Shown here piece by piece: positions 1-21,962 of a stretch of DNA of 21,962 nt. The DNA comes from a virus, in IMG/VR virus record IMGVR_UViG_3300030329_001442, positions 3,473-25,434 of that record; one strand, given 5' to 3'. The notes under the pieces were generated by a model. That model did not search any database. It was not told the DNA's origin and saw nothing but the letters and a program-made list of their open reading frames with translations. The number at the start of each line of letters is the position of its first letter. Within the stretch, counting starts at the first letter, position 1. Position numbers and translations under genes: made by a program.

Positions 1-2504
1 CTGCGATGGTAAATGCAAACGTTATTACAGGTCAGACTGCAGAAACTTCTCTAGATAGTAATAATGATACGTTATTATTTCACGACAACTCTGCAAGTGC
101 ATTACGTAAAGTAACTGTTGGAAGTCTATCTAGTGCTTTAGGTGGATTGTCTGAGGTTTCTGGAGACTCATCTCCACAATTAGGTGGTGATTTAGATGTA
201 AATGGCAATGATATTACAGGCTCTACAATAACACTAGATTCTGCAGGAGACATAATACTTGACGCAGATGGCACAGACATAACCCTAAAAGATGGTGGAA
301 CAACTTTTGCTAATCTTAAAAACTCTAGTGGTGAGTTAGTAATTCAATCAGGTTCTACACCTACAACTGCTATGACCTTTAGTGGTGCTAACGTAACTTT
401 AGCAGGAAACTTAACTGTATCAGGAACAACAACTACAGTAAACTCTACTACTGTAAATCTAAACGACCACAACATTGTATTAGATAGTGGTAATGATACA
501 AGTGCAGTAGTAAATGGTGCAGGTATAACTATTGAAGGTGGTAGTGGAGATGACGCTACATTTAGTTACAATACAACAGGTCCTAAATTTGAATTAAAAT
601 TAGGTTCTAGTCACGAAGATTTACAAGTAGACCAACTCATTGCAGCTTCTTTAGATATATCAGGCAACGTAGATGTAGATGGTACTTTAGAAACAGATGC
701 TTTATCCATAGCAAGCACCACAGTTACTTCTACAGCAGCAGAGCTTAACATTCTTGATGGAGTAACTGCAACCACTGCAGAGCTAAACATTTTAGATGGA
801 GTTACTGCCAGTGCTGCAGATATTAATTTAATAGATGGCATTACAAACGGAACTGTAATAGCAAGTAAAGCTATCATAACTGATTCAAACAAAGATATAT
901 CAGGTGGTAGAAATATTACAATTACAGGTGAACTTGACGCAGCTACACTAGATATATCAGGTAATGCAGATATTGATGGAACACTTGAGACAGATGCGTT
1001 ATCTATCAATGGTACAACTGTTACCTCTACTGCTGCAGAACTAAATATACTTGATGGCGTAACCTCTACTACTGCAGAGTTGAACATTCTTGATGGTGTT
1101 ACATCCACCACTGCAGAATTAAATATATTAGATGGAGTAACCTCTACTACTGCAGAGTTGAATTTGCTTGATGGGTCAACTGCAGGAACAGTTGTAGCAT
1201 CAAAAGCAGTTGTAGTAGACTCAAATAAAGATATAGCAAGTTTTAGAAATGTCACACTAACAGGTGAGCTTGACGCAGCTACCTTAGACATTAGTGGTAA
1301 TGCAGACATAGATGGCACACTTGAAGCAGCTGCAATCACAGTGGGTGGTACTGCATTAAACACTGTTATAGCAGGTGTTACTGTTACTGATGCTACCAAT
1401 GCTGCTCACGTATTAGTTACAGATAACGAAAGTACAGACGAAGATAATTTAATTACCTTTGTAGAAGGTGCAACTTCTAGCACAGGTAACGTTGGATTAG
1501 AGATGGATGGTAACTTAACTTACAATCCAAGCACAGGTAGATTAACTGCTACACAGTTAGCAGGTACATTACAAACTGCTGCACAAGCAAACATTACATC
1601 ATTAGGAACACTTACAACATTAACAGTAGATGACATTACTATTAATGATAGCACTATATCTGACAGTGGAGATTTTACATTAGATGTTGGTGGAGATATA
1701 ACTTTTGATGCTGCAGGTAATGATTTTAAATTTCAAGATAACGGAACAGAGTTTTTTAGAATTAGTAACTCATCTAGCAATGCAGTTCTTAAACCTACTG
1801 TGTCTGCTAAAGATATAATTTTTCAAAGAACAAATGGTGATGAGATAGCAAGAGTTAAGTCAAGTACTGATACATTCGATGTTCAAACAGGCAAACTTGC
1901 TATAAACGGAACAGCAATTACATCCACTGCTGCAGAGTTAAACATCCTAGATGGAGTGACCTCTACTGCTGCAGAATTGAACATCCTTGATGGCGTTACT
2001 TCTACCACAGCCGAGTTAAATATCTTAGATGGAGTTACATCTACAGCAGCCGAGTTGAATTTAGTAGACGGAATTACTGCAGGCACAGTGTCTGCGTCTA
2101 AAGCAGTTATTGTTGACTCTAACAAAGATGTAACAGGTTTTAGAAACGTTACAACAACAGGAGACGTAACTGTAGGAGATGATGCTTCTGTAGCAGGTAG
2201 AGCAACAGGTAATCAAGAGACAGACAATGATGGTAACTTTGATTTAGCGACTGCTAACTTTTTTAAGTGTACTCCATCAGGTAACTTTACTTTAACTTTA
2301 TCTAACCCTGCAGAGGGTCAATCAGGAACAATCATGCTAATTAACACTGGTGGTCACACAGTATCTGCCCACGCTAGTGTTGCTATAAATGCAGATATCT
2401 TAACAGCAATATCTTCAGCAGGAACATATATGCTTACTTATTATTGTTCTGCTGCAAGTGGTAATAATACAATACTAGTAGGTGCAACAGGAGCTTTAGC
2501 GTAA
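1..2504 (+). CDS. Repeat-rich phage tail fibre protein (5' end outside window)
   Basis: This is a long fibrous virion protein, probably a tail fibre that contacts the host surface. The frame is open to the window edge. The first ATG (base 6) lies inside a segment (NVITGQTAE, then DTLLFHDNSASALRK) that resembles the interior of marine phage fibres, so I treat the gene as 5'-truncated; at least 833 residues are visible. The middle consists of Thr/Asp/Gly-rich, beta-solenoid-like repeats: eleven copies of a 13-residue unit (consensus STTAELNILDGVT) in three clusters, joined by longer repeated segments containing LDISGNADIDGTLE. The last ~90 residues (from about NFFKCTPSGNFTLTL) look like the non-repetitive C-terminal cap of marine phage fibres. 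The next gene begins one base after the stop codon. The repeat type is familiar from marine phage fibres, but the receptor and fold are inferred. Confidence 0.82.
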   Translation, partial: AMVNANVITGQTAETSLDSNNDTLLFHDNSASALRKVTVGSLSSALGGLSEVSGDSSPQLGGDLDVNGNDITGSTITLDSAGDIILDADGTDITLKDGGTTFANLKNSSGELVIQSGSTPTTAMTFSGANVTLAGNLTVSGTTTTVNSTTVNLNDHNIVLDSGNDTSAVVNGAGITIEGGSGDDATFSYNTTGPKFELKLGSSHEDLQVDQLIAASLDISGNVDVDGTLETDALSIASTTVTSTAAELNILDGVTATTAELNILDGVTASAADINLIDGITNGTVIASKAIITDSNKDISGGRNITITGELDAATLDISGNADIDGTLETDALSINGTTVTSTAAELNILDGVTSTTAELNILDGVTSTTAELNILDGVTSTTAELNLLDGSTAGTVVASKAVVVDSNKDIASFRNVTLTGELDAATLDISGNADIDGTLEAAAITVGGTALNTVIAGVTVTDATNAAHVLVTDNESTDEDNLITFVEGATSSTGNVGLEMDGNLTYNPSTGRLTATQLAGTLQTAAQANITSLGTLTTLTVDDITINDSTISDSGDFTLDVGGDITFDAAGNDFKFQDNGTEFFRISNSSSNAVLKPTVSAKDIIFQRTNGDEIARVKSSTDTFDVQTGKLAINGTAITSTAAELNILDGVTSTAAELNILDGVTSTTAELNILDGVTSTAAELNLVDGITAGTVSASKAVIVDSNKDVTGFRNVTTTGDVTVGDDASVAGRATGNQETDNDGNFDLATANFFKCTPSGNFTLTLSNPAEGQSGTIMLINTGGHTVSAHASVAINADILTAISSAGTYMLTYYCSAASGNNTILVGATGALA
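729..845 (+). repeat. Fibre 13-aa repeat cluster 1 (3 units of 39 nt)
   Basis: Three contiguous in-frame 39-nt units encode STAAELNILDGVT, ATTAELNILDGVT and the divergent ASAADINLIDGIT. The units differ at many synonymous positions, so the repeat is much clearer in protein than in DNA. Confidence 0.9.
1026..1181 (+). repeat. Fibre 13-aa repeat cluster 2 (4 units of 39 nt)
   Basis: Four contiguous 39-nt units encode STAAELNILDGVT, two copies of STTAELNILDGVT, and STTAELNLLDGST. The unit ends the same way as in cluster 1, followed by a (N/A)GTV(I/V)ASKA linker. Confidence 0.9.
1923..2078 (+). repeat. Fibre 13-aa repeat cluster 3 (4 units of 39 nt)
   Basis: Four contiguous 39-nt units encode three STxAELNILDGVT copies and a last STAAELNLVDGIT, followed by a TAGTVSASKAVIVDSNKD linker like those after clusters 1 and 2. 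Confidence 0.9.
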
Positions 2505-5704: not shown

Positions 5705-5938
5705 ATGGAGATAGATGCAATGTTATTTTGGAATATAATCCTAACAATGGTAGTAGTACCATTTGGTTGGGCATTCAACAAGATGTTCCAAGAGGTAAAG
5801 CGTATACAAATACTCCTAAATAAAACAAGAGAAGAATATGCACGTAAGGATGATGTTAAAGAAGATATGCATGACCTTATGGATGCTATTAAAAGATTAG
5901 AAGATAAACTAGATAAGATATTAATGGGAGCTAGATAG
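5705..5938 (+). CDS. Small membrane/coiled-coil protein, holin candidate
   Basis: This 77-residue protein has one membrane segment (residues ~7-24, LFWNIILTMVVVPFGWAF) followed by a charged coiled coil (residues ~27-75) ending in LEDKLDKILMGAR. Size, single N-terminal membrane segment and place in the late module fit a holin or other lysis/membrane factor, but no endolysin is visible in the window, so this is inference. There are two possible starts. The ATG at 5705 has AAGGA at 5691-5695. The ATG at 5720 (codon 6) has its own GGAG at 5707-5710, nine bases away. The long form adds the acidic residues E and D ahead of the membrane segment. The promoter just upstream would start RNA near 5708, which would exclude the first ATG, so the two starts may be used from different transcripts. 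The stop overlaps the next gene's GTG. Confidence 0.6.
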   Translation: MEIDAMLFWNIILTMVVVPFGWAFNKMFQEVKRIQILLNKTREEYARKDDVKEDMHDLMDAIKRLEDKLDKILMGAR

Positions 5939-7980
5939 TGGCAGTATTTACAGGATTTAAACCAACAGGATTAAAGAAAATAGCAGGTAGACTTGGCTAT
6001 CAAGGTTCATTAGATAACTTTGAAAATTATCTAGAACAGAATCCTGAGAAGAAAAGACAAATGCTTGTCTACGAAGAGTCTGCAAAACGTATGGCTCGTG
6101 GTGGTATTGTTAGAATGCAAGAGGGTGGCACAACTGCCTCTAGAGAGCTACGCCCTGAGGATTTTGATACTGTATATGGAGGACCTGCTCCAATGCCTAG
6201 TCTAGATGAAGGTGCATTTACACCTCCACCTGTTACACCTCCACCTGTTACACCTCCACCTGAAGAAGAAAAGGCACAAACAATAGAAGACTTTAGTATA
6301 CAACAAGCAAAAAATCCAACTGTGCCTGAGGGAGGTGTTACTAAAGCAGCTAACATAGAGTATGACCCAAATCAATCTGTATCGACAACAGATAGTATGA
6401 TTAAAGATGATGTAAAAGTAGGTACTACAGTAAAAGGTCAAGTTGCTCAAACAGGAACTCCTGATGCAAGTTCTGCTGCAACAATAGATGCTTCAAATGC
6501 TTCTCCTGAAGTAAAAGAAGCTGTAAAAAGCATGAACGCTGCTCAAGGTATTGTTAGTAACGAAGCTATAGTAAATCCTGCACAACAAGATGAAAGTTCT
6601 GTATCAAAGTTAAAAGCTGCACAAGGAACTGCTACTACATTACAAAACCCTGTTCAAAGAGAAATACAGGAAGGTGAGTTAATTAGTGGAGTAGCTAACG
6701 CTGAAAAGGCAGCTAAATTTACTGAACAAATAGAAGCAGCAGAGGCATTGCCTTCAGAAAAAGCTACTGTAAGAGGACAACTTGCAGAGCTAACTTCTGA
6801 CTTTGATGGTAAAAATCCACCACCTTGGGCAGCAGGAACATTAAGAGCTATTCAGGCTCAGATGGCTGCAAGAGGAGTAGGTGCATCTAGTATGGCAGGA
6901 CAAGCTCTTATTCAAGGAGCATTAGAGTCTGCACTTCCCATAGCTCAAGCAGATGCTTCAACATTTGCAAGATTTGAGGAACAAAATCTATCCAACAGAC
7001 AAGCAAGAGCACTTTTAGCTGCAGAACAAAGAGCTACTTTCTTAGGTCAAGAGTTTGACCAAGCATTTCAATCAAGAGTAAAAAACGCTGCATCTATAGC
7101 AGATGTAGCAAATATGAATTTTACTGCAGAGCAAACTATAGCTTTAGAAAATGCTAAAATGACTGAAACAATGAATATAGCCAATCTAGAAAATAGACAA
7201 GCTATGGTTATGGCAGAAGCTGCTGCGTTATCTAATTTAGATGAAGCAAACTTAAATAACAGACAACAAGCTGCAGTGCAAAATGCTAAATCTTTTTTAG
7301 AAATGGACATGGCTAATTTAGATAATGAACAACAAACAGAAATGTTTAAAAATGAACAAATAACACAAGCCATATTTACAGATACTGCAGCAGATAACGC
7401 TGCAAAACAATTCAATGCAGAGTCAGAAAATCAAACAAATCAATTCTATGATGGATTAAAAGCTGATGTTGCTAAACATAATACAGAGCAAAAAAATGCT
7501 ATGGAAAGATATAATGCAGGAGAAGAAAACGAGATAGCAAAATATAATGCAGAGCTTAAACTGCAGAAAGAAAAGTTTAATTCAGAGAATAGAAGAATAA
7601 TAGACCAATCAAACGCAGTGTGGAGAAGAGAAATAGCAACTGCAGACACTGAGGCAATTAACCGTGCTAACGAATTAAATGCAAAAGCAGTGTTAGATAT
7701 ATCGGCAACTGCATACAATAATATTTGGCAAGGTTTTAGAGATGACATTGAGCATTCTTTTAAATCAGGTGAAAATGCAAAAGAACGTGCAAAAGATATA
7801 ACATTAAGAAAAATGCAAGACGAGGCAGAAGTTGCTGCCGCTGCTTTAGTGGCGAGTGCTCAAGAAGCATCTGATTTAGCAGATGGTGTTGTTGCTTTAG
7901 CGACAAGTAATACTGGTGCAAGTTTAGTTTCTGATGCAGTAGACATAGCAGAAAAAGCTATAAAGTGGATATTTGGTTAG
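5938..7980 (+). CDS. Virion structural protein with 11-residue repeat rod
   Basis: This is a 680-residue protein, probably an internal virion or tail component. It starts at GTG (5938), overlapping the previous TAG by one base, with GGGAG at 5926-5930. Residues ~1-60 are basic (FTGFKPTGLKKIAGRLGY, RMARGGIVRMQEGG), a start seen in marine phage structural proteins. A Pro/Thr hinge (PPPVTPPPVTPPP) follows at residues ~95-108, then an Ala/Thr/Gln-rich linker. Residues ~350-591 form an uninterrupted 11-residue repeat with Asn or Asp at the first position of most units, consistent with a long alpha-helical rod. The C-terminus (GFRDDIEHSF to the terminal AIKWIFG) is helical and Ala-rich. I recognise no enzymatic motif. 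The role is inferred from composition and from its place between fibre and ejection-protein genes. Confidence 0.6.
   Translation: MAVFTGFKPTGLKKIAGRLGYQGSLDNFENYLEQNPEKKRQMLVYEESAKRMARGGIVRMQEGGTTASRELRPEDFDTVYGGPAPMPSLDEGAFTPPPVTPPPVTPPPEEEKAQTIEDFSIQQAKNPTVPEGGVTKAANIEYDPNQSVSTTDSMIKDDVKVGTTVKGQVAQTGTPDASSAATIDASNASPEVKEAVKSMNAAQGIVSNEAIVNPAQQDESSVSKLKAAQGTATTLQNPVQREIQEGELISGVANAEKAAKFTEQIEAAEALPSEKATVRGQLAELTSDFDGKNPPPWAAGTLRAIQAQMAARGVGASSMAGQALIQGALESALPIAQADASTFARFEEQNLSNRQARALLAAEQRATFLGQEFDQAFQSRVKNAASIADVANMNFTAEQTIALENAKMTETMNIANLENRQAMVMAEAAALSNLDEANLNNRQQAAVQNAKSFLEMDMANLDNEQQTEMFKNEQITQAIFTDTAADNAAKQFNAESENQTNQFYDGLKADVAKHNTEQKNAMERYNAGEENEIAKYNAELKLQKEKFNSENRRIIDQSNAVWRREIATADTEAINRANELNAKAVLDISATAYNNIWQGFRDDIEHSFKSGENAKERAKDITLRKMQDEAEVAAAALVASAQEASDLADGVVALATSNTGASLVSDAVDIAEKAIKWIFG
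6220..6261 (+). repeat. 15-nt tandem repeat encoding Pro-rich hinge
   Basis: Two exact copies of ACACCTCCACCTGTT and a third copy cut to 12 bases lie in frame and encode TPPPV units. Slippage here would change hinge length in steps of five residues. Confidence 0.9.
6985..7710 (+). repeat. 22 contiguous 11-residue (33-nt) repeat units
   Basis: Cutting the protein every 11 residues from Asn at base 6985 gives 22 units with no insertion or deletion. Asn is first in 15 and Asp in 2 more. Typical units are NLENRQAMVMA, NLNNRQQAAVQ and NAELKLQKEKF. The first half alternates NL..RQ and NA units (22-residue period); the second half is closer to (F/Y)NAE every 11. An 11-residue period fits a hendecad, right-handed coiled coil. 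The DNA itself is poorly conserved between units. Confidence 0.85.
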
Positions 7981-7988
7981 GAGTAAAT

Positions 7989-8303
7989 ATGATACAGAGT
8001 AGTATAGTAGCAAAAACATATGTAAACATGGATGTTATGGCTAAAGAAATAGAGAAAGCAGAAAAAGGAGAAGGTAAAAATGCCTCAAAAATTACTGCTA
8101 AACCCTCTGAAAAAAAAGGTTTATTGACAAGAAATAAAATGTTTGAACCTAGAAAAAATATGGAAGAGTCTGACTCTGAATCCGAAGAAGACATAAGTGT
8201 ACAACAACAAAAATTAGTATTAGGATATTTGATGAGAATACGTAAGGCTTTTGAAGAGGCAAGAGAAGCAAAAAAAGCAAGAAAAGGTAAAAAAAATGGC
8301 TGA
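7989..8303 (+). CDS. Small highly charged protein of unknown function
   Basis: This 104-residue protein is not one I recognise. It has a short N-terminus (MIQSSIVAKTYVNMDVMAKE), a Lys/Glu-rich middle, an acidic Ser/Glu stretch (ESDSESEED) and a basic tail (REAKKARKGKKNG). It is probably partly disordered with one helix near QQQKLVLGYLMRIRKAFEEA. I chose the ATG at 7989 because AGGAG (7979-7983, overlapping the previous stop) lies five bases upstream; the in-frame ATG at 7965 is inside the preceding gene and has no such site. Its stop overlaps the next gene's start, so it is cotranslated with the virion genes. A scaffold or small virion role is possible, but nothing in the sequence proves it. 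Confidence 0.65.
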   Translation: MIQSSIVAKTYVNMDVMAKEIEKAEKGEGKNASKITAKPSEKKGLLTRNKMFEPRKNMEESDSESEEDISVQQQKLVLGYLMRIRKAFEEAREAKKARKGKKNG

Positions 8304-8796
8304 TGCAATATTTGGAGGTCCTATTCCGGGAGCATCTTTAACAACAGAACTAGGTAATAGACCTTGGGAAAATCCACCGAAACAAGCTAATTTAGATATT
8401 GTGATAAATTCTTATATGAGAAGACTACAGTCTCCTGAAATAATAAGACCTTTAGTTGATGCAATACGATATGGCACTTCTATAACTACCATAGTAGAAA
8501 GCGTTATTGAAACTGCAGTTATGGAAGGAGAACATAGTTTAGATGTAGGTATACTAGCTTCGCCTGTAATAGTAGAGTATTTAAAACAGATAGCTGAAAC
8601 ATCAAAACTAGATTATAAATTAACTGATGCAGATGTAAGGGCAGCAAAAAAACAAAAAACCATAGATAGTAGATTATTAGAAGAAGTTCTAAAAGATTTA
8701 GATAAGCCTAAAGCTATAGATGATACAATAGAAGAGTCAGTAGAAACTGTTGAAACTGAGGCTAAAGGATTAATGTCTAGAAGAGGAAAGAAATAA
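8296..8796 (+). CDS. Virion-associated protein with PIPGASLT...PWENPP N-terminus
   Basis: This is a 166-residue protein. Its N-terminal pattern (GGPIPGASLTTE, then RPWENPP) resembles a widespread marine phage protein family that usually sits among structural genes; its function is unknown to me. The rest is predicted helical (LDIVINSYMRRLQ, IETAVMEGEHSLDVGILASPVIVEYL) with an acidic segment and a basic end (MSRRGKK). The start at 8296 (MADAIFGG) overlaps the previous TGA (ATGGCTGA), with a weak AAAAGG upstream. An upstream in-frame ATG at 8251 would add only the Lys/Gln-rich reading of the previous gene and is less likely. The next gene begins one base after the stop. Confidence 0.62.
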   Translation: MADAIFGGPIPGASLTTELGNRPWENPPKQANLDIVINSYMRRLQSPEIIRPLVDAIRYGTSITTIVESVIETAVMEGEHSLDVGILASPVIVEYLKQIAETSKLDYKLTDADVRAAKKQKTIDSRLLEEVLKDLDKPKAIDDTIEESVETVETEAKGLMSRRGKK

Positions 8797-8797
8797 A

Positions 8798-9961
8798 ATG
8801 GCTGCAGGATTAAATTTTAATTTTAGTAAATTTTTTACCAGAGGTTTTAAAAAAATCGGAGAAACTGTTCAAGACATGGATGAAAAAGTTGCAACCGAAG
8901 CAAAAGCATTTGCAGAAGATGGTATAGAAAAAGCTGAAGAATATGAAACACAAGTAGAAGCAAACAGAAAATTACTAGAAGCAGAAGTTAGTAAATTACA
9001 AGCTCTTGGAATTAAGGATGTTGGTAAAATTAGAACCGTTATGAATGCTTATGGTAATGAAGACGTTATGAAAAAACTAACTGAAGATTATAAAAGCTAC
9101 AGAGCAAAGGCTGCACTTGGTCAAAATCAAGGAAAGTTCACAAGTCTCTCAGAATATATAAACGGTAAATTACAACCACAAGGAATACTGTCTGATGAGG
9201 GTGCAGAAGTAGCAGAAGATGAAGCAGTCATAGCAGGAGAAGCTACTGATATTCAAAAAGCAGAAAAAAGAGCTAAAGCCATGGGTGTTGATTTGCAAAC
9301 TTATCTTGCCTCACAAGCAAGAAAAATGTCAGACAAATCTGCATTTGATGTTGATGCTAGAGCAAAACTATTAGTTGAAAGAAGTAAGTTAGGTTTACTT
9401 GGTAAAACATTAACTTTAGAACAAGCTAAAGAGATGATAACAAAAGATATGGGTGAGCAACCTGATACTACTCCAAAAGAGTTAGGTGAAACAGGATTTA
9501 AGTTTGATAGAGAAGACCCATTAACTGCAGAAGAAGTTATAAAAATTGAAAAATTAGGAAAACAAAAAGATAAAGATTTAGGTCTAGAACTTGACGATAA
9601 AGAAATAAGAGCTGTTAGAAACGACTTATTAAGAATGATTAAAGGCAAAGGGGAATTTGTTGTTGGAGCAGATGAGGGAGATTTATCTATAAAAGATACT
9701 CCCGAATCTTATGATGCACTGATTAACGAAATAAACATTCGATTAGAAAGAGACAAACAAGCTAAAGAAAAAAACCAACCATCATTATCAGCTAAATCTA
9801 TAAATATTCTTAATTCATTGAAAGCAGAAGCCGAACTTAAAAAGAAAGGGTTAAGTAAAAAACAAATAGTTATACCTGAAATAAAATCACAAGAAGAGTA
9901 TGATAAACTACCTAAAGGAAGTCAGTATAAAAGAAATGGAAAATTGTATAGAAAAAAATAG
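8798..9961 (+). CDS. Helical virion protein of unknown function
   Basis: This 387-residue protein is Lys/Glu/Ala-rich and mostly helical. The N-terminus is amphipathic (FNFSKFFTRGFKKIGETV), followed by a coiled-coil-like stretch (residues ~25-70, ending KLQALGIKDVGKIRTVMNAYG). A central acidic part and a long basic helix lead to a C-terminal pattern EEYDKLPKGSQYKRNGKLYRKK-type end (Y..LP.G..Y..NGK..RK). That pattern recurs at the ends of many marine phage virion proteins. Position immediately before the large ejection-protein candidate suggests an internal virion role. The ATG follows the previous TAA by one base, with GAGG about 11 bases upstream, a weak site consistent with coupling. I see no catalytic motif. 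Confidence 0.55.
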   Translation: MAAGLNFNFSKFFTRGFKKIGETVQDMDEKVATEAKAFAEDGIEKAEEYETQVEANRKLLEAEVSKLQALGIKDVGKIRTVMNAYGNEDVMKKLTEDYKSYRAKAALGQNQGKFTSLSEYINGKLQPQGILSDEGAEVAEDEAVIAGEATDIQKAEKRAKAMGVDLQTYLASQARKMSDKSAFDVDARAKLLVERSKLGLLGKTLTLEQAKEMITKDMGEQPDTTPKELGETGFKFDREDPLTAEEVIKIEKLGKQKDKDLGLELDDKEIRAVRNDLLRMIKGKGEFVVGADEGDLSIKDTPESYDALINEINIRLERDKQAKEKNQPSLSAKSINILNSLKAEAELKKKGLSKKQIVIPEIKSQEEYDKLPKGSQYKRNGKLYRKK

Positions 9962-9970
9962 GAAGTAATC

Positions 9971-12900
9971 ATGTTAAAAAATGAATTTGGTGACGAAGAA
10001 ATAAAAGAAGATGAAAACGAATTTGGTGATAAAGTTATAGATGAAAACAAATCCAAATTAAATGAATTTGGTGACGAAGAAATAACTGAAGTTACTGAAC
10101 CAAATGTTAATGAGTTTGGTGATGAAGAAATAACTGAAGTATCCACGACAAAACCTACCACACCTACGTACAAACCCCCTGAAGAAGGTCTAACCTACGA
10201 CCAATTTAAATCTAACCCCCAATTATTATCAGCAGCAAAACGATTTGCTAAAAATAGACTAGGCTTTGATAACATCTCTGATGAAGATGCAGTTGATGAA
10301 GTTATAGAGCACTTTAGAGAATTTAAAGTTAATGAATTAACTGCAGGTGCAGATTGGAACTACACAAGTGGTTTAGTCACAGACGGTAAAAGAGACGAAA
10401 TAAATGATTATAAGTCTTTGTACAGAGCAACAGAGGCTATGGAAGATTTTGGTGGTGGTGTCATGAGCACGATAGGTGACTACGCAGAGGGTATATTTAC
10501 TGCTCCATCAACTCTTGTAGGATTACTACTTCCGGGTGGTGGTAAATTAGCAGGTATAGCTGCTCAACAAACTGCTAAACTTGGAGTTGGTAGAATAATT
10601 GCAGGTGCTGCTGCTCGACCTATAACTACTGCAGTAGGAGTAGAAACAACTGCAGGTGTTTTGCAGGATGTAGCAGAACAAAAAAGTTTAATGGCAGTTG
10701 ATGAACAAGATGACTTTGACTTTGGTCAAACTATAACAACAGGTGTTTTGACAGGTGCAGCCACTGCAGTTGTTGGTAGTGTGCCTTTATATTTAGCTAA
10801 AAAGTATGGTGCTAAAGAAATAAGCAAAAGAGCACAAACAGATGATTTATTAGCAACATCTCAAAAAGCAGTAGAAAAGAAAACTAAAAAGGCAGACGCA
10901 ACTGCTAAAGAAACATTGTCAAAAGCAGGAACGAAAGGTAATGAAGTAAAAGAAAGATTAAAAGAACTGAACAAAGAGTCTGTAGATGCAGGTAAAAAAG
11001 TAGGAGAAGACATTGCAGAGGATGCAGGTGTAGATGCACCCCTTAGAGTAGCAGTGACACCTGATAAATTAGATAGGGTATCTGCTGCTGCAGTTGAAGT
11101 TTTAGGTAAAACAGGATTAAAAACATTTAGAGGTGTAAATAGTAAAGGTGAAGAAGTTGTAAAAAAAGAAAGAATAACTGAAGGCATAGCTAGAGTAATA
11201 AGAAGTGCAAAAGACGATGCAACTGACAAAGCACTAGCAGAAGACTTTGGTAAAATTCTAAATAAATATAATTTAACTCAAGATGATTTTGCTAATTTGT
11301 TTATGTCTGAATTTTCAGAAGCAGGTAGATTACTGCAGAAAGCAGGGCATAATAAAAAACAATTAAGAGAAATGTTAAAGTCCATTGATGATGTTTCTAC
11401 TTCTGATATTTTTTCATTAAATGAAAATGCACTAGATGTTTTTGCAAAATCTAAAAAAGCTATAGATAAGGATGATGTTCAAGGTTTCTTAAAAATATTT
11501 GACCATGATTGGAAAGATTACTTTAGAAGTGCAGATGCTTTGCGTTTGGCTGCTATGACTTCACAGGTGGGTACTACGGTTCGTAATACTGTGGGTGGTT
11601 TTTCAAGAGTCGGTATTGATGCTCTAGCAACTGTATTTGATAATGCAGTACAAGGTGTGGTCACAGGCACAAGACGAATAGTAACAGGGGAGAAGGGAAC
11701 TCAAACATTCAAAGACGCTTTCAAGGATACATTTGCCATAGCATATGGGTTAATAAATAAAGATAAAGCAATAGCAGTAGAACAAATATTTGCTATGGGA
11801 TTTCAAAACAAAGCACAAAAGTTATATAGGCAATTAGCAGATTTAGAAGATTTAACAAATGTTGGATTAAAGGGGAAAAAGAAACCACCAAGCAAAATGA
11901 GAAACCTAACTACAGGAATAGGTAGAAATTTAAACGTATTAAACACGCTATCTGATAATATGTTTAAACGTGCTGCTTTTATGGGTGGTTTGGAAAGAAG
12001 TCTACGTTTAATGAAAAGAAGAAGGTTGGCTAGTGGACAGAAAGTTAATGACGCTGATTTTGATTTACTTGAGATAATGAAAGCAGGTAATTTTAATAAA
12101 GTATTTGGTACAGAGCAAGGTAAAAAAGCATTAGATAGAGCCATAGAAGATGCACTATACTTTACTTATCAGGCATCTCCTAAAAGCACAGTAGGACAAT
12201 TATTAGTAAAAGGTGCTAATAACTTACCATTTTTAACAACATCAGTTGTTCCTTTCCCTAGATTCTTAGCGAATGCGATGAGGTTTACTTATGAATACTC
12301 TCCTGTTTTTTTATTGAGCACTAGGGTAAGAAAAGAATTAATTAGAAGTTTTGGTAAGGAAACAGGTGAAGAGTTTGGTATACGTAGCTACCATAATACT
12401 GCAAAGGGTTTGGCAGGTCTAGGTGTTTTATTTGGTGCTGCTGCTTTCAGAGAATCTGAATATGCAGGAGAAAAGTGGTATGAGGGTAAATCAGAAGATG
12501 GACAGACATATGATTTGAGACCTTTCTTTCCTGCTGCACCCTATTTATTTTTTGCAGACTTAATTAAAAGATATAGAGCAAATGAAAATGTTGTAGACAA
12601 AAGAACTTTTAGAGGTTCTCTACAGGCTATTACAGGTATGCAGGTAGGTAAGGCAGGATTTGGATTATACGCTATGGACAAATTAGTGGATGACATATAC
12701 AATACTTTTGATGGAAGTTTAGAAAGTGAAGAAGCTGTTAATCGTATATTAGCAGAGTTTGCATCTAATATAACATCAACTTATTTTATGCCACTAACTC
12801 CTATTCAAGATATATATAACACATTTATTGCAGGAGATGACGAAAGAATAATAAGAGAAAATCAGGTAGAAGATATAGGTGCTCTAATATTACATAAATC

Positions 12901-13561
12901 TTTAGCTCGTATTCCCGGAAACTATAATATAGAAAAGATGTTACATGAAATGTTTGGAACAGAATATAATATACCTAAAGCATACCAATCTCCAACAAGA
13001 GAAGGTTTAATGAGAAGACCCACACCTATAACAAGACAGGTGTATGGTAGATTATATAGAGGTAAAAAAACAGAAATAGAAAAAGAGTTAGATAGACTTA
13101 AAATTACAAAAGCAGAGGTACTTAGAAGAACAGGAATAACTGAAGCAGATAGACTATTAGGATTTTATATGGGTGAGTTTATGACTGACATTGTAGCACC
13201 TTTTATAAAAACAGACTTTTACAAAAGATTACCTAATGACGCAAAAAGAGAAATATTAAAAATAGAAATTGCAAGAGTAAGAAAGAAAGTTACTGAGGCT
13301 GTTTCTAGAACGGTGGTGGAAGATGCAAGTAATGTAAGGACAAGACCTTATACAAAAGTAAAATTTAAAAAGTTACCTAAGTTTTATAGGAATATAGCTA
13401 TTAATACCTACAATAAAGTATATGGAGAGCCTAATAAATATAGAGATTATGATTATGAAATTTTGTTTGATTTAGCTCAACAGGCACGTAAAAAATTTAA
13501 AAATAAACAATTTATAATTGAAGATATTACTGATGAATTAAAACAAAGAGACCCTGATTGA
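9971..13561 (+). CDS. Large internal virion (ejection) protein candidate
   Basis: This is a 1196-residue protein, the largest complete one in the window. Residues 4-57 carry four copies of an acidic motif (NEFGDEEI), then a Thr/Pro linker, then a conserved-looking segment (DAVDEVIEHFREFKVNELTAG) like that in other marine podovirus internal proteins. Two Gly/Ala-rich hydrophobic regions follow (residues ~160-220 and ~254-276, the second ending GSVPLYLAKKYG). The rest is long, basic and helical, with AMTSQVGTTVRNTVGGFSR and a conserved C-terminal half rich in Arg/Lys. Size, hydrophobic stretches in an otherwise soluble helical protein and place at the end of the late module fit proteins ejected to form a channel for DNA, as with T7 gp15/gp16. 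I find no transglycosylase motif. AGGAAG lies five bases before the ATG. Confidence 0.6.
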   Translation: MLKNEFGDEEIKEDENEFGDKVIDENKSKLNEFGDEEITEVTEPNVNEFGDEEITEVSTTKPTTPTYKPPEEGLTYDQFKSNPQLLSAAKRFAKNRLGFDNISDEDAVDEVIEHFREFKVNELTAGADWNYTSGLVTDGKRDEINDYKSLYRATEAMEDFGGGVMSTIGDYAEGIFTAPSTLVGLLLPGGGKLAGIAAQQTAKLGVGRIIAGAAARPITTAVGVETTAGVLQDVAEQKSLMAVDEQDDFDFGQTITTGVLTGAATAVVGSVPLYLAKKYGAKEISKRAQTDDLLATSQKAVEKKTKKADATAKETLSKAGTKGNEVKERLKELNKESVDAGKKVGEDIAEDAGVDAPLRVAVTPDKLDRVSAAAVEVLGKTGLKTFRGVNSKGEEVVKKERITEGIARVIRSAKDDATDKALAEDFGKILNKYNLTQDDFANLFMSEFSEAGRLLQKAGHNKKQLREMLKSIDDVSTSDIFSLNENALDVFAKSKKAIDKDDVQGFLKIFDHDWKDYFRSADALRLAAMTSQVGTTVRNTVGGFSRVGIDALATVFDNAVQGVVTGTRRIVTGEKGTQTFKDAFKDTFAIAYGLINKDKAIAVEQIFAMGFQNKAQKLYRQLADLEDLTNVGLKGKKKPPSKMRNLTTGIGRNLNVLNTLSDNMFKRAAFMGGLERSLRLMKRRRLASGQKVNDADFDLLEIMKAGNFNKVFGTEQGKKALDRAIEDALYFTYQASPKSTVGQLLVKGANNLPFLTTSVVPFPRFLANAMRFTYEYSPVFLLSTRVRKELIRSFGKETGEEFGIRSYHNTAKGLAGLGVLFGAAAFRESEYAGEKWYEGKSEDGQTYDLRPFFPAAPYLFFADLIKRYRANENVVDKRTFRGSLQAITGMQVGKAGFGLYAMDKLVDDIYNTFDGSLESEEAVNRILAEFASNITSTYFMPLTPIQDIYNTFIAGDDERIIRENQVEDIGALILHKSLARIPGNYNIEKMLHEMFGTEYNIPKAYQSPTREGLMRRPTPITRQVYGRLYRGKKTEIEKELDRLKITKAEVLRRTGITEADRLLGFYMGEFMTDIVAPFIKTDFYKRLPNDAKREILKIEIARVRKKVTEAVSRTVVEDASNVRTRPYTKVKFKKLPKFYRNIAINTYNKVYGEPNKYRDYDYEILFDLAQQARKKFKNKQFIIEDITDELKQRDPD
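9980..10141 (+). repeat. Four acidic NEFGDEEI motifs at the N-terminus
   Basis: NEFGDEEI, NEFGDKVI, NEFGDEEITEV and NEFGDEEITEV start at residues 4, 16, 31 and 47. Copies 3 and 4 are nearly identical in DNA, so that duplication looks recent. Confidence 0.85.
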
Positions 13562-20191: not shown

Positions 20192-20220
20192 GTTATATCA
20201 CGATACATCTTTTGTGTCAA
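20192..20220 (-). promoter_or_regulatory. Near-consensus sigma70-type promoter, minus strand
   Basis: On the minus strand, TTGACA (20220-20215), a 17-base spacer and TATAAC (20197-20192) match 11 of 12 sigma70 consensus bases at optimal spacing. The -35 box lies inside the last codons of the polymerase gene and the -10 box in the 40-base gap. RNA would begin near 20185, ahead of the ribosome-binding site of the 302-aa gene. Confidence 0.6.
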
Positions 20221-21962
20221 GCCAATTTCTTCCTATTTTTGCCTCTAAAAGTAAAGGAACATTTAAGTTAATTCTAAACTGTCGATTTACAATGACATTT
20301 AGCTCTTGGTTCATATCATTTATTATTGAAATCACTTTCTGTTCTTCCTCAGGATGTACATCAATCACAATACTATCATGAACTGTATTCACAATACATG
20401 ATTTATATTCTCTTAATTTAAGTTCTATATTTATTAATACAAGAGGCACAATATCTGCAGTAGCAAAACTTTGCACAGGATAGTTTTTTATCTGTGTGAA
20501 GTGCGATACAGAACCACCATACTTTCTTTCTACATCAGGAAAAGAGAATTGCCTACCTGATGGTGTTGTAATCATACCTGTTTCTAAAGCCTCTTTAGCC
20601 AATTTGGAATGCCAAAGTGCGATGCCTTTGTATTTTTTTGTGAACGCTTTGTAGTAACTTGCTTCGGCTTTCGTTCTGCCAAACCCAGTCGCACCATATA
20701 ACGGAGCAAAGGTATGTGCTTTAGCTTCTTGTCTAGTTGTACTCTGACCCGAAGCTGAAATAACTGAAGACGTATAAGAGTGAACGTCAAAACCTGTCTT
20801 AACTTCATTTATAGCCACCTCATCTTGTGATAAATAAGCTGCAGTTCTAAACTCTAACTGTGCAAAGTCAGCTTCTAGAATCTTGCCACCTTCCCAACGT
20901 GAAACAAATACCTTCTTTACAGGGAATGTACCACCTCTAGGCATATTCTGCATATTGGGGTCTGCTCCACTAAATCTGCCTGTCGCAGTTCTGTGTTGTA
21001 ATAATCTAACGTGCAACATACCATCAGGTTTCATGTAGGTTGAAATGCCATGAACGAAAGAAGATAGGTATGTATCTAACGCAGATAGTCTTTGTAAATC
21101 TGATAAGAAGTTACTTGCCTCTATCATATCATTTTTCTTTGCTACATTTTGTAGTAAAGATAGATTGTTTTTATTTACACTGAAACCATTAGCACTAATC
21201 CATTTTGCATTGGGTGCATTGAACTTTAGTCCTGCAACAATATTAGTTGGTTTAAATAAATAACCTAGATTATTACAGTTAGAACACTTACTAGGTTTGG
21301 CATACGGACTGCCATCCTTCTTTATCTTTCTAATAAACCCACTACCATTGCACGTAGTACATTTGATAGCTTTCGTTTTATATATTACATCTGTATGTTT
21401 TTTTATGGTTGCTTTATATTCTTCATTAGGCATATAAGGAGTGAAGTTATTACCCCACATGGATTTATCTTTTAGCTTTCGACTGTAAATAACCCAAGAC
21501 ATTTGTTCAGGACTATTGAGATTAATAGGTGTGTCACCCATGAGTTCTCTAACTTGTTTAGATAACCTCTGTTCTATATCAGACTTCTCTTGTTCAAACT
21601 GAACTTGCACTTCTTTTAGAACATCTTTATCCACTTTGAATCCATTCTTATATATTCTAGCTAGAGTAACACAAACTCTGTTTGTTAAAATTACAGACTC
21701 TAACAAACTTGCATACTCTTGTGTATTTAATTTTTTATACACCTCATTAGATAGTTGTTGTGTTGCTTTTAAATCTGCTAACAAGTATTCTTTTAATTCA
21801 TCTCTTGGTATAGCATCAACTCCAACACCTTGAGCAAAGTAATGTTTAAGTGTATCCTTCTTTTGTGTTTCAAGTTGATAGCGTTCTGCACAAGCCTCAA
21901 GAGATAAAGGTTGTTTAATACCTCTTTGAATTATATACTCTGCTAACATTGTATCAAAGACT
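20198..21962 (-). CDS. polA: Family A DNA polymerase with internal DnaJ-type zinc finger (5' end outside window)
   Basis: This is the phage replicative DNA polymerase. The frame runs off the window (the four codons before the first ATG read V-F-D-T), so the 3'-5' exonuclease domain is cut; its third motif is visible near LKEYLLADLKAT. Residues below are counted from the Met at 21949. The polymerase core has RTATGRFSGADPNMQNMPRG, motif A ILEADFAQLEFR (D361), motif B RQEAKAHTFAPLYG (R406, K410, F414, Y418) and motif C VHDS (H524, D525). F414 sits where E. coli Pol I has F762. Between exonuclease and polymerase is CTTCNGSG ... CSNC (C197, C200, C222, C225), like one repeat of the DnaJ cysteine-rich domain, the trait described for HMO-2011-like phages. 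It ends at a TGA overlapping the downstream promoter. Confidence 0.93.
   Translation of the reverse strand, partial: VFDTMLAEYIIQRGIKQPLSLEACAERYQLETQKKDTLKHYFAQGVGVDAIPRDELKEYLLADLKATQQLSNEVYKKLNTQEYASLLESVILTNRVCVTLARIYKNGFKVDKDVLKEVQVQFEQEKSDIEQRLSKQVRELMGDTPINLNSPEQMSWVIYSRKLKDKSMWGNNFTPYMPNEEYKATIKKHTDVIYKTKAIKCTTCNGSGFIRKIKKDGSPYAKPSKCSNCNNLGYLFKPTNIVAGLKFNAPNAKWISANGFSVNKNNLSLLQNVAKKNDMIEASNFLSDLQRLSALDTYLSSFVHGISTYMKPDGMLHVRLLQHRTATGRFSGADPNMQNMPRGGTFPVKKVFVSRWEGGKILEADFAQLEFRTAAYLSQDEVAINEVKTGFDVHSYTSSVISASGQSTTRQEAKAHTFAPLYGATGFGRTKAEASYYKAFTKKYKGIALWHSKLAKEALETGMITTPSGRQFSFPDVERKYGGSVSHFTQIKNYPVQSFATADIVPLVLINIELKLREYKSCIVNTVHDSIVIDVHPEEEQKVISIINDMNQELNVIVNRQFRINLNVPLLLEAKIGRNWLDTKDVS

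Follow-up and report, generated by a model that had tools for sequence, protein, structure and literature searches.

A phage repeat array that changes length by whole 11-residue units and may help to deliver viral DNA

The locus and its late gene cassette

Phages of the HMO-2011 type have been described as being among the most abundant virus groups of the ocean (PMC6918029). The DNA considered here (the window, 21,962 nucleotides) comprises positions 3473-25434 of a 25,434-base IMG/VR virus record and, judging from its encoded proteins, originates from an HMO-2011-type podophage. Its gene order is that of HMO-2011: fibres, the repeat protein that is our subject, small genes and a large gene, with MazG and ribonucleotide reductase on the other strand. 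The repeat protein is encoded by an open reading frame of 680 amino acids with a GTG start (5938..7980, + strand). It is a homologue of HMO-2011 gp25 (phage1322_25, annotated as 'hypothetical protein'), with 49 % identity over 92 % of the length. It has no Pfam family above the gathering score and no PHROG match, and a Pfam search finds no Peptidase_S74 domain in it.

The surrounding cassette keeps the same order across hosts, namely the repeat gene, a small gene, a gene for 165-180 amino acids, one for 315-900 amino acids and finally a large gene. Directly upstream of the repeat gene in the window lies a 77-codon frame with a hydrophobic N-terminus, possibly part of a lysis group (5705..5938, +). 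Downstream, a 165-residue protein of no known family (8299..8796, +) occupies this position in 143 loci; it and its relatives of 165-180 amino acids start with PIPGxSLTxExGNxPWExPP and have no match in the PDB or PHROG. It is followed by a 387-residue protein (8798..9961, +), in the slot that holds the 315-900-residue frame in relatives, and by a 1196-residue protein, again of no known family, which is the last of the late cassette and is conserved in 78 loci (9971..13561, +). From the position of its gene, the repeat protein is likely to be a virion protein.

Two other features of the record deserve mention. A tail-fibre-like frame at window positions 6-2504, together with adjoining upstream sequence (L163, 1547-3484), carries tandem repeats of its own, about 13 residues long (TSTxAELNILDGV); close to the start of the window, the upstream part breaks off in undetermined residues, likely a gap in the record. 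At the other end, a family A DNA polymerase on the minus strand (20198-21949) has an inserted CTTCNGSG ... CSNC element, which resembles the CXXCXGXG (DnaJ-type) motifs reported for polymerases of HMO-2011-type phages.

A gapless array of 11-residue units

The repeat protein begins with a three-helix mini-domain, residues 1-53 (5938..6096, +), which AlphaFold predicts with a pLDDT of about 86-97, followed by a low-confidence and probably flexible linker, residues 54-254 (6097..6699, +). Next comes a conserved segment of the form RGxGASSxAG...ESALPIAQADA (6853..6984, +), and then the array itself. The original prediction had described 22 consecutive 11-residue units without a gap, Asn standing first in 15 of them and Asp in 2 more, and exactly this was found at residues 350-591, base 6985 being codon 350 in frame with the 5938-7980 reading frame. 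Within these 242 residues, 15 of the 32 Asn fall in one register (hypergeometric P = 2e-10), while the best of 500 shuffles reached 1e-5 when all periods from 5 to 30 were searched. None of the other long reading frames tested within the window has a comparable Asn run.

The suspicion that the residues just upstream form a 23rd unit proved too modest, as the register extends four units further. These units (QAQMAARGVGA, SSMAGQALIQG, ALESALPIAQA and DASTFARFEEQ) make up the conserved segment and are in phase both here and in relatives, but lack the leading Asn. Motifs of the type NL.N.Q do lie at 6985, 7183, 7249 and 7315, on multiples of 66 bases, although the fourth reads NLDNEQ and so departs from the NL.NRQ that had been proposed for all four.

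Relatives and the steps of array length

More than 100 relatives were found in the phage records and viral contigs searched. They come from marine and freshwater contigs and from phages of Roseobacter, Pelagibacter, SAR116, Vibrio, Aeromonas, Pseudoalteromonas, Rhizobium and Sinorhizobium. The genome collection contained relatives only as phage contigs sitting in metagenome-assembled genomes (MAGs). Among these, contigs of equal length and matching score (L170-L173) occur in MAGs of Flavobacteriales TMED123 and Neomarinimicrobiota MED589; their filing in two unrelated bacteria is likely to be a binning error, which could mislead host assignment.

Nearly all complete relatives have a gapless Asn register, of 14 to 75 units, the latter amounting to 825 residues. 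The register mostly stands well above shuffled sequences and is weakest in phiM6, the Rhizobium phages and CRP-212 and CRP-738. Isolates and finished genomes have 14-37 units, and the records of isolates in the range of 18 to 37 units are 53-66 kb long; the counts up to 75 come from contigs. The comparison of unit number among relatives that the original prediction had proposed thus yields a wide range, with changes by whole units. Counted from the ESALPIA motif ahead of the array to a motif beyond it, the distance leaves a remainder of 9 on division by 11 in 99 of 100 proteins; in the one that departs from this, L041, the anchor had been placed at a later site. When the end anchor was defined more strictly, all 95 non-redundant relatives gave this remainder. 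This constant spacing upholds the earlier view that selection holds the register. At the level of protein sequence, array length is shown to change by whole units only, with one 11-residue register running across two different segments.

Most of the changes follow a larger step. Measured between the anchors, 69 of the 95 non-redundant relatives have arrays of 13, 23, 33, 43, 53 or 63 units (13+10k); the other lengths are 19 (Pelagibacter type), 5 (CHOED type) and 7 (phiM6 type), with 12 and 17 found once each. A tree built from the flanking sequences requires 10 or more switches between 13+10k classes, and every one of them adds or removes an exact multiple of 110 residues. In the longest arrays, the blocks of 110 residues can still be recognised as recent tandem duplicates. 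In the 23-unit class no special similarity is left at 110 residues, and still the length is exact.

Two halves with different periodicities

The array consists of two halves that share a register and differ in their periodic signals. In the first half, most length classes show high self-identity at even multiples of 11 residues, whereas odd multiples stay close to background (0.31 at 22 versus 0.14 at 11 in one example); the Pelagibacter class shows this pattern more weakly. The real repeat of the first half therefore spans 22 residues and pairs an NLxNxQQ-type unit with an NA-type unit behind it, and the 12 units of residues 350-481 in the window protein (6985..7380, +) form six such repeats. 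This is also why the 66-base spacing of the NL motifs matters: it reflects a structural repeat of 22 residues and not of 11.

The second half, residues 482-591 (7381..7710, +), consists of 10 hendecad units of the type N-A-x-x-x-N-x-[IV]-x-Q-F. Over these units (12-21) there is a 3.67-residue hydrophobic period (power 7.6, P < 0.001). It places Phe/Tyr, Ile/Val/Met and Leu/Gln along a single stripe and, together with the AlphaFold model, suggests a continuous helix. In units 0-11 of the window protein the 3.67-residue period is not significant (P 0.12) and a period of 2.75 is strong. Over the whole array, the Kyte-Doolittle scale gives no significant 3.67-residue period (P 0.92). The 11-residue hydrophobic signal sought by periodicity analysis is thus present in the C-terminal half and absent from the N-terminal half, so that the hendecad signature once read into the entire array belongs to residues 482-591, predicted as part of one long helix, and not to the 22-residue repeats that precede them. 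Across the array units hydrophobic positions form two opposite stripes, and proline stands at 0.1 % in 2,506 units.

Predicted structure

AlphaFold was run on the window protein as a single chain with 55 sequences. The model has no strands; beside the confident mini-domain (1-53) and the flexible linker it shows a single helix from residue 497 to 656, including a C-terminal continuation of the long helix beyond the array (residues 592-656; 7711..7905, +). The first half is modeled as helical, though with a low pLDDT (about 45-65), and is interrupted at 369-374, 413-418 and 438-440; these positions coincide with three of the five junctions expected from a 22-residue helix-loop repeat.

A clearer picture of the first half comes from the 75-unit relative L113, modeled from a 26-sequence repeat alignment (pTM 0.42). 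From about residue 236 to 780, its model shows a 16-residue helix plus a 6-residue loop every 22 residues (pLDDT about 80-91), and a long low-confidence helix begins at residue 852. Each loop covers the junction at which an NA-type unit gives way to an NL-type unit, often with a Gly just ahead of it, and in the model NLSNxQQ reads as a helix N-cap. Each fifth helix is shorter and irregular, giving a superunit of 110 residues. Since each predicted helix-loop unit takes 22 residues, 110 residues correspond to five helices. The result that we consider most notable is that array length is quantised across phages, strictly by 11 and mostly by 110 residues; in terms of the predicted structure, the array grows by whole five-helix blocks.

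The first-half array is accordingly predicted, in the 75-unit relative, to be an alpha-solenoid with no close match in the PDB: a fold search with the L113 model against the PDB gave no good match (best E = 0.02, TM at most 0.25). Viral matches with E below 0.001 were three phage or viral proteins with no assigned function, the best of them 58 % identical. The window model, of low confidence, retrieved only generic long helices. PDB profile searches with the repeat protein and two downstream proteins returned only designed or generic helical proteins, or nothing.

These models support the all-alpha structure that had been foreseen, both being free of strands. A beta-solenoid with an Asn ladder had been considered, given the period of 22, the stacked Asn and strong 2.2/2.75 harmonics; it was rejected on the lack of any strand in either model and on the helical, proline- and glycine-poor composition of the units. 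The uniform 35-nm hendecad rod of the original prediction is not supported either, as the first half has no significant 3.67-residue period and the long homologue is predicted to form a helix-loop-helix solenoid there. The evidence does support a rod in the C-terminal half, with a length of roughly 16-24 nm.

Could the five-helix block also be a geometric unit? One proposal, speculative and rather improbable in our estimation, is that five 22-residue helix-loop units make one full turn of a single-chain coil, a tube that grows by whole turns only, in which the opposite stripes would contact the turn above and the turn below. Such a turn would account for the strictness of the 11-residue register, for both stripes and for the occurrence of 13+10k lengths in separate lineages. 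Alternatively, duplication bias alone may lie behind the 110-residue steps, which would then reflect how the gene duplicates and not a structural turn.

Accessory domains in relatives

Several relatives carry additional domains. Four (CRP-3, CRP-212, CRP-235 and CRP-738) end in an S74 chaperone domain, and the closest S74 relatives outside the family, in Vibrio and Pseudomonas phages, are proteins encoded directly upstream of P22 gp20-like injection genes and gp16-like genes. S74-like C-terminal domains were seen in PVA1, AH02, 1.090.B, 1.275.O, 199E37-1 and Octadecabacter DB virus 2 (L164-L169); unexpectedly, the P22-like phages in this set have their S74 proteins in the slot of P22 gene 7, before gp20-like genes. 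Two further leads were set aside. A PHROG match of CRP-235 to 'DNA ejection protein' covers the S74 domain, which is also found in tail fibres, and a likeness by eye between the RGxGASSxAG segment and the gp7-slot proteins was not supported as homology on comparison.

At the other end, some relatives have variable N-terminal extensions with LysM, DUF4214 or RTX nonapeptide domains (L040, L129, L120, L125, L126), which suggests exchangeable modules for envelope contact. Annotations as lysine-acyltransferase (toxin-activating) occur near the repeat gene in two loci (L031 7666-8115, HTVC115P gp46; L040 443-865, CRP-235 gp30). Together with the RTX repeats (L120, L125, L126), these genes hint that a delivery protein may be acylated or may need calcium to fold.

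Comparison with known systems

Homologues with the same register and gene order include HMO-2011 gp25 and proteins of Roseobacter CRP, Pelagibacter HTVC, Vibrio CHOED, Aeromonas MQM1 and Sinorhizobium phiM6 phages. The isolate homologues, gp25 among them, have about 30-51 % protein identity, differ in unit number, in some cases carry LysM or S74, and have no assigned function.

Beyond the family, the nearest systems are Sf6 gp12 and the ejection proteins P22 gp7-gp20-gp16 and T7 gp14-gp15-gp16 (reviewed in PMC8954989). The latter are helical, increase in size along the cassette and have neighbouring genes late in the structural region; the cassette of the repeat gene has a similar layout and size order, with partner proteins that match no assigned family. 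Some gp7-slot proteins of P22-like phages have the S74 domain in common with four relatives; otherwise there is neither homology nor a fold match to the P22 and T7 proteins, and the passages of that review considered here make no mention of repeat arrays of this kind. Sf6 gp12, a DNA-injection protein of a short-tailed phage, is a flexible monomer able to assemble into a channel (PMC4755594), but no homology of the window protein to solved structures was found. The nearest functional parallel is the phiX174 H tube, a decamer built from continuous helices that contain 3 hendecads and 11 heptads (PMC7354561), which likewise has amide-rich hendecads and provides a DNA path spanning the envelope. 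It is unrelated in sequence and belongs to an unrelated virus, however, and half of the window array is predicted to form helix-loop repeats instead.

Known alpha-solenoids (HEAT, TPR, mTERF and designed helical repeats) also have tandem helices, short loops and open-ended length. The family described here differs from them in its predicted single helix per 22 residues, its strict 11-residue Asn register and its predicted five-helix quantum, and searches found no match to Pfam repeat families or solved solenoids.

Genome delivery and its alternatives

We put at about an even chance that the protein is a component of genome delivery, either ejected or located at the tail tip. This reading is based on the conserved cassette that closes the late region, on the S74 relatives near gp20- and gp16-like genes, and on the LysM, RTX and DUF4214 domains. 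The protein would travel with the virion or its tail; on infection it would either leave the particle or extend, and would build or line a DNA path across the cell envelope. No relation to solved ejection proteins was found by sequence or fold (PDB profile and fold searches), homology to gp7-slot proteins is absent outside S74, and the literature searched held no virion proteomics for these phages. Counting against delivery, RTX and DUF4214 would equally suit an external adhesin. A straight rod of 75 units would moreover measure about 124 nm, more than a periplasm could hold, so the longest arrays must fold up or act otherwise.

Indeed, the alternative that survives best is an external fibre or adhesin at the tail tip, trimeric and partly coiled-coil, in which the array would set the reach, variable N-terminal domains would bind and, in some members, S74 would act as a trimerising chaperone at the C-terminus. 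The gene directly follows the tail-fibre genes, the array varies strongly in length, the C-terminal half is a single-seam hendecad helix, and S74, RTX, LysM and DUF4214 all occur in relatives. Nevertheless, the upstream region already has fibre genes of its own, the conserved cassette around the array encodes large proteins that are not fibres, most relatives and the window protein lack S74, and the first half, a predicted solenoid, lacks the single hydrophobic stripe of a trimeric rod; we regard a fibre as unlikely.

Less probable still is that the whole array is one hendecad helix in a multi-helix barrel lined with Asn and Gln, like the DNA-piloting tube of phiX174 H. The 11-residue units, the amide-rich helix, the near-absence of proline and the two opposite stripes all fit, and in the three hendecads of the H tube, although they amount to only 33 residues, harmonic strength likewise peaks at 11/4 and is lowest at 11/3. 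This idea, which arose from the two-stripe pattern, was demoted by first-half identity at multiples of 22 rather than 11 and by the loops predicted every 22 residues in the long homologue. A solenoid whose helices pack on both neighbours explains two stripes equally well, and array lengths reach 75 units.

A scaffold inside the head or core, which would organise the packaged DNA without being delivered itself, is also improbable, more so than the barrel: the gene is in a late structural cassette, Asn/Gln-rich helices could touch DNA and CRP-3 is matched over its repeat and C-terminus by phrog_6121 (a 'virion structural protein' of the head and packaging category, 3.6e-13), but the LysM, RTX and DUF4214 domains of relatives point to the cell envelope. 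The tape-measure-like element of the original prediction does not suit short-tailed phages, a class that includes the isolated relatives CRP-1 to CRP-3 (PMC6918029), and tape-measure folds were matched only at E > 0.1.

Returning to genome delivery, the joint explanation that we favor, tentatively and at slightly less than even chance, is a solenoid spacer plus an oligomerising hendecad stem that together form the first component of a delivery cassette. The first segment would be an alpha-solenoid with a 16-residue helix and a 6-residue loop per 22 residues. Each helix would pack against the one before and the one after it, in line with hydrophobic stripes on opposite sides, and the segment would act as a spacer adjustable in length by units of five helices (110 residues). 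The second would be one long amphipathic hendecad helix, able to oligomerise through its single stripe and serving as the stem. The 11-residue register would be the common step of these two different structures, and the N-terminal part, sometimes with LysM, RTX or DUF4214, would contact the cell envelope.

Significance for HMO-2011-type phages

A natural protein that holds one register through up to 825 residues and lengthens by 110 is an uncommon subject for work on the growth of helical repeats, and might be of use in the design of length-programmable helical scaffolds. If the five-helix-turn coil were true, it would be a natural length-quantised protein tube for DNA delivery and a new kind of helical coil. 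Comparison of phages with 13, 23 and 33 units could show whether array length matches a dimension of the envelope or of the tail. The length pattern suggests a modular helical structure that may help to deliver viral DNA, and the repeat protein offers a concrete handle on DNA delivery by HMO-2011-type phages.
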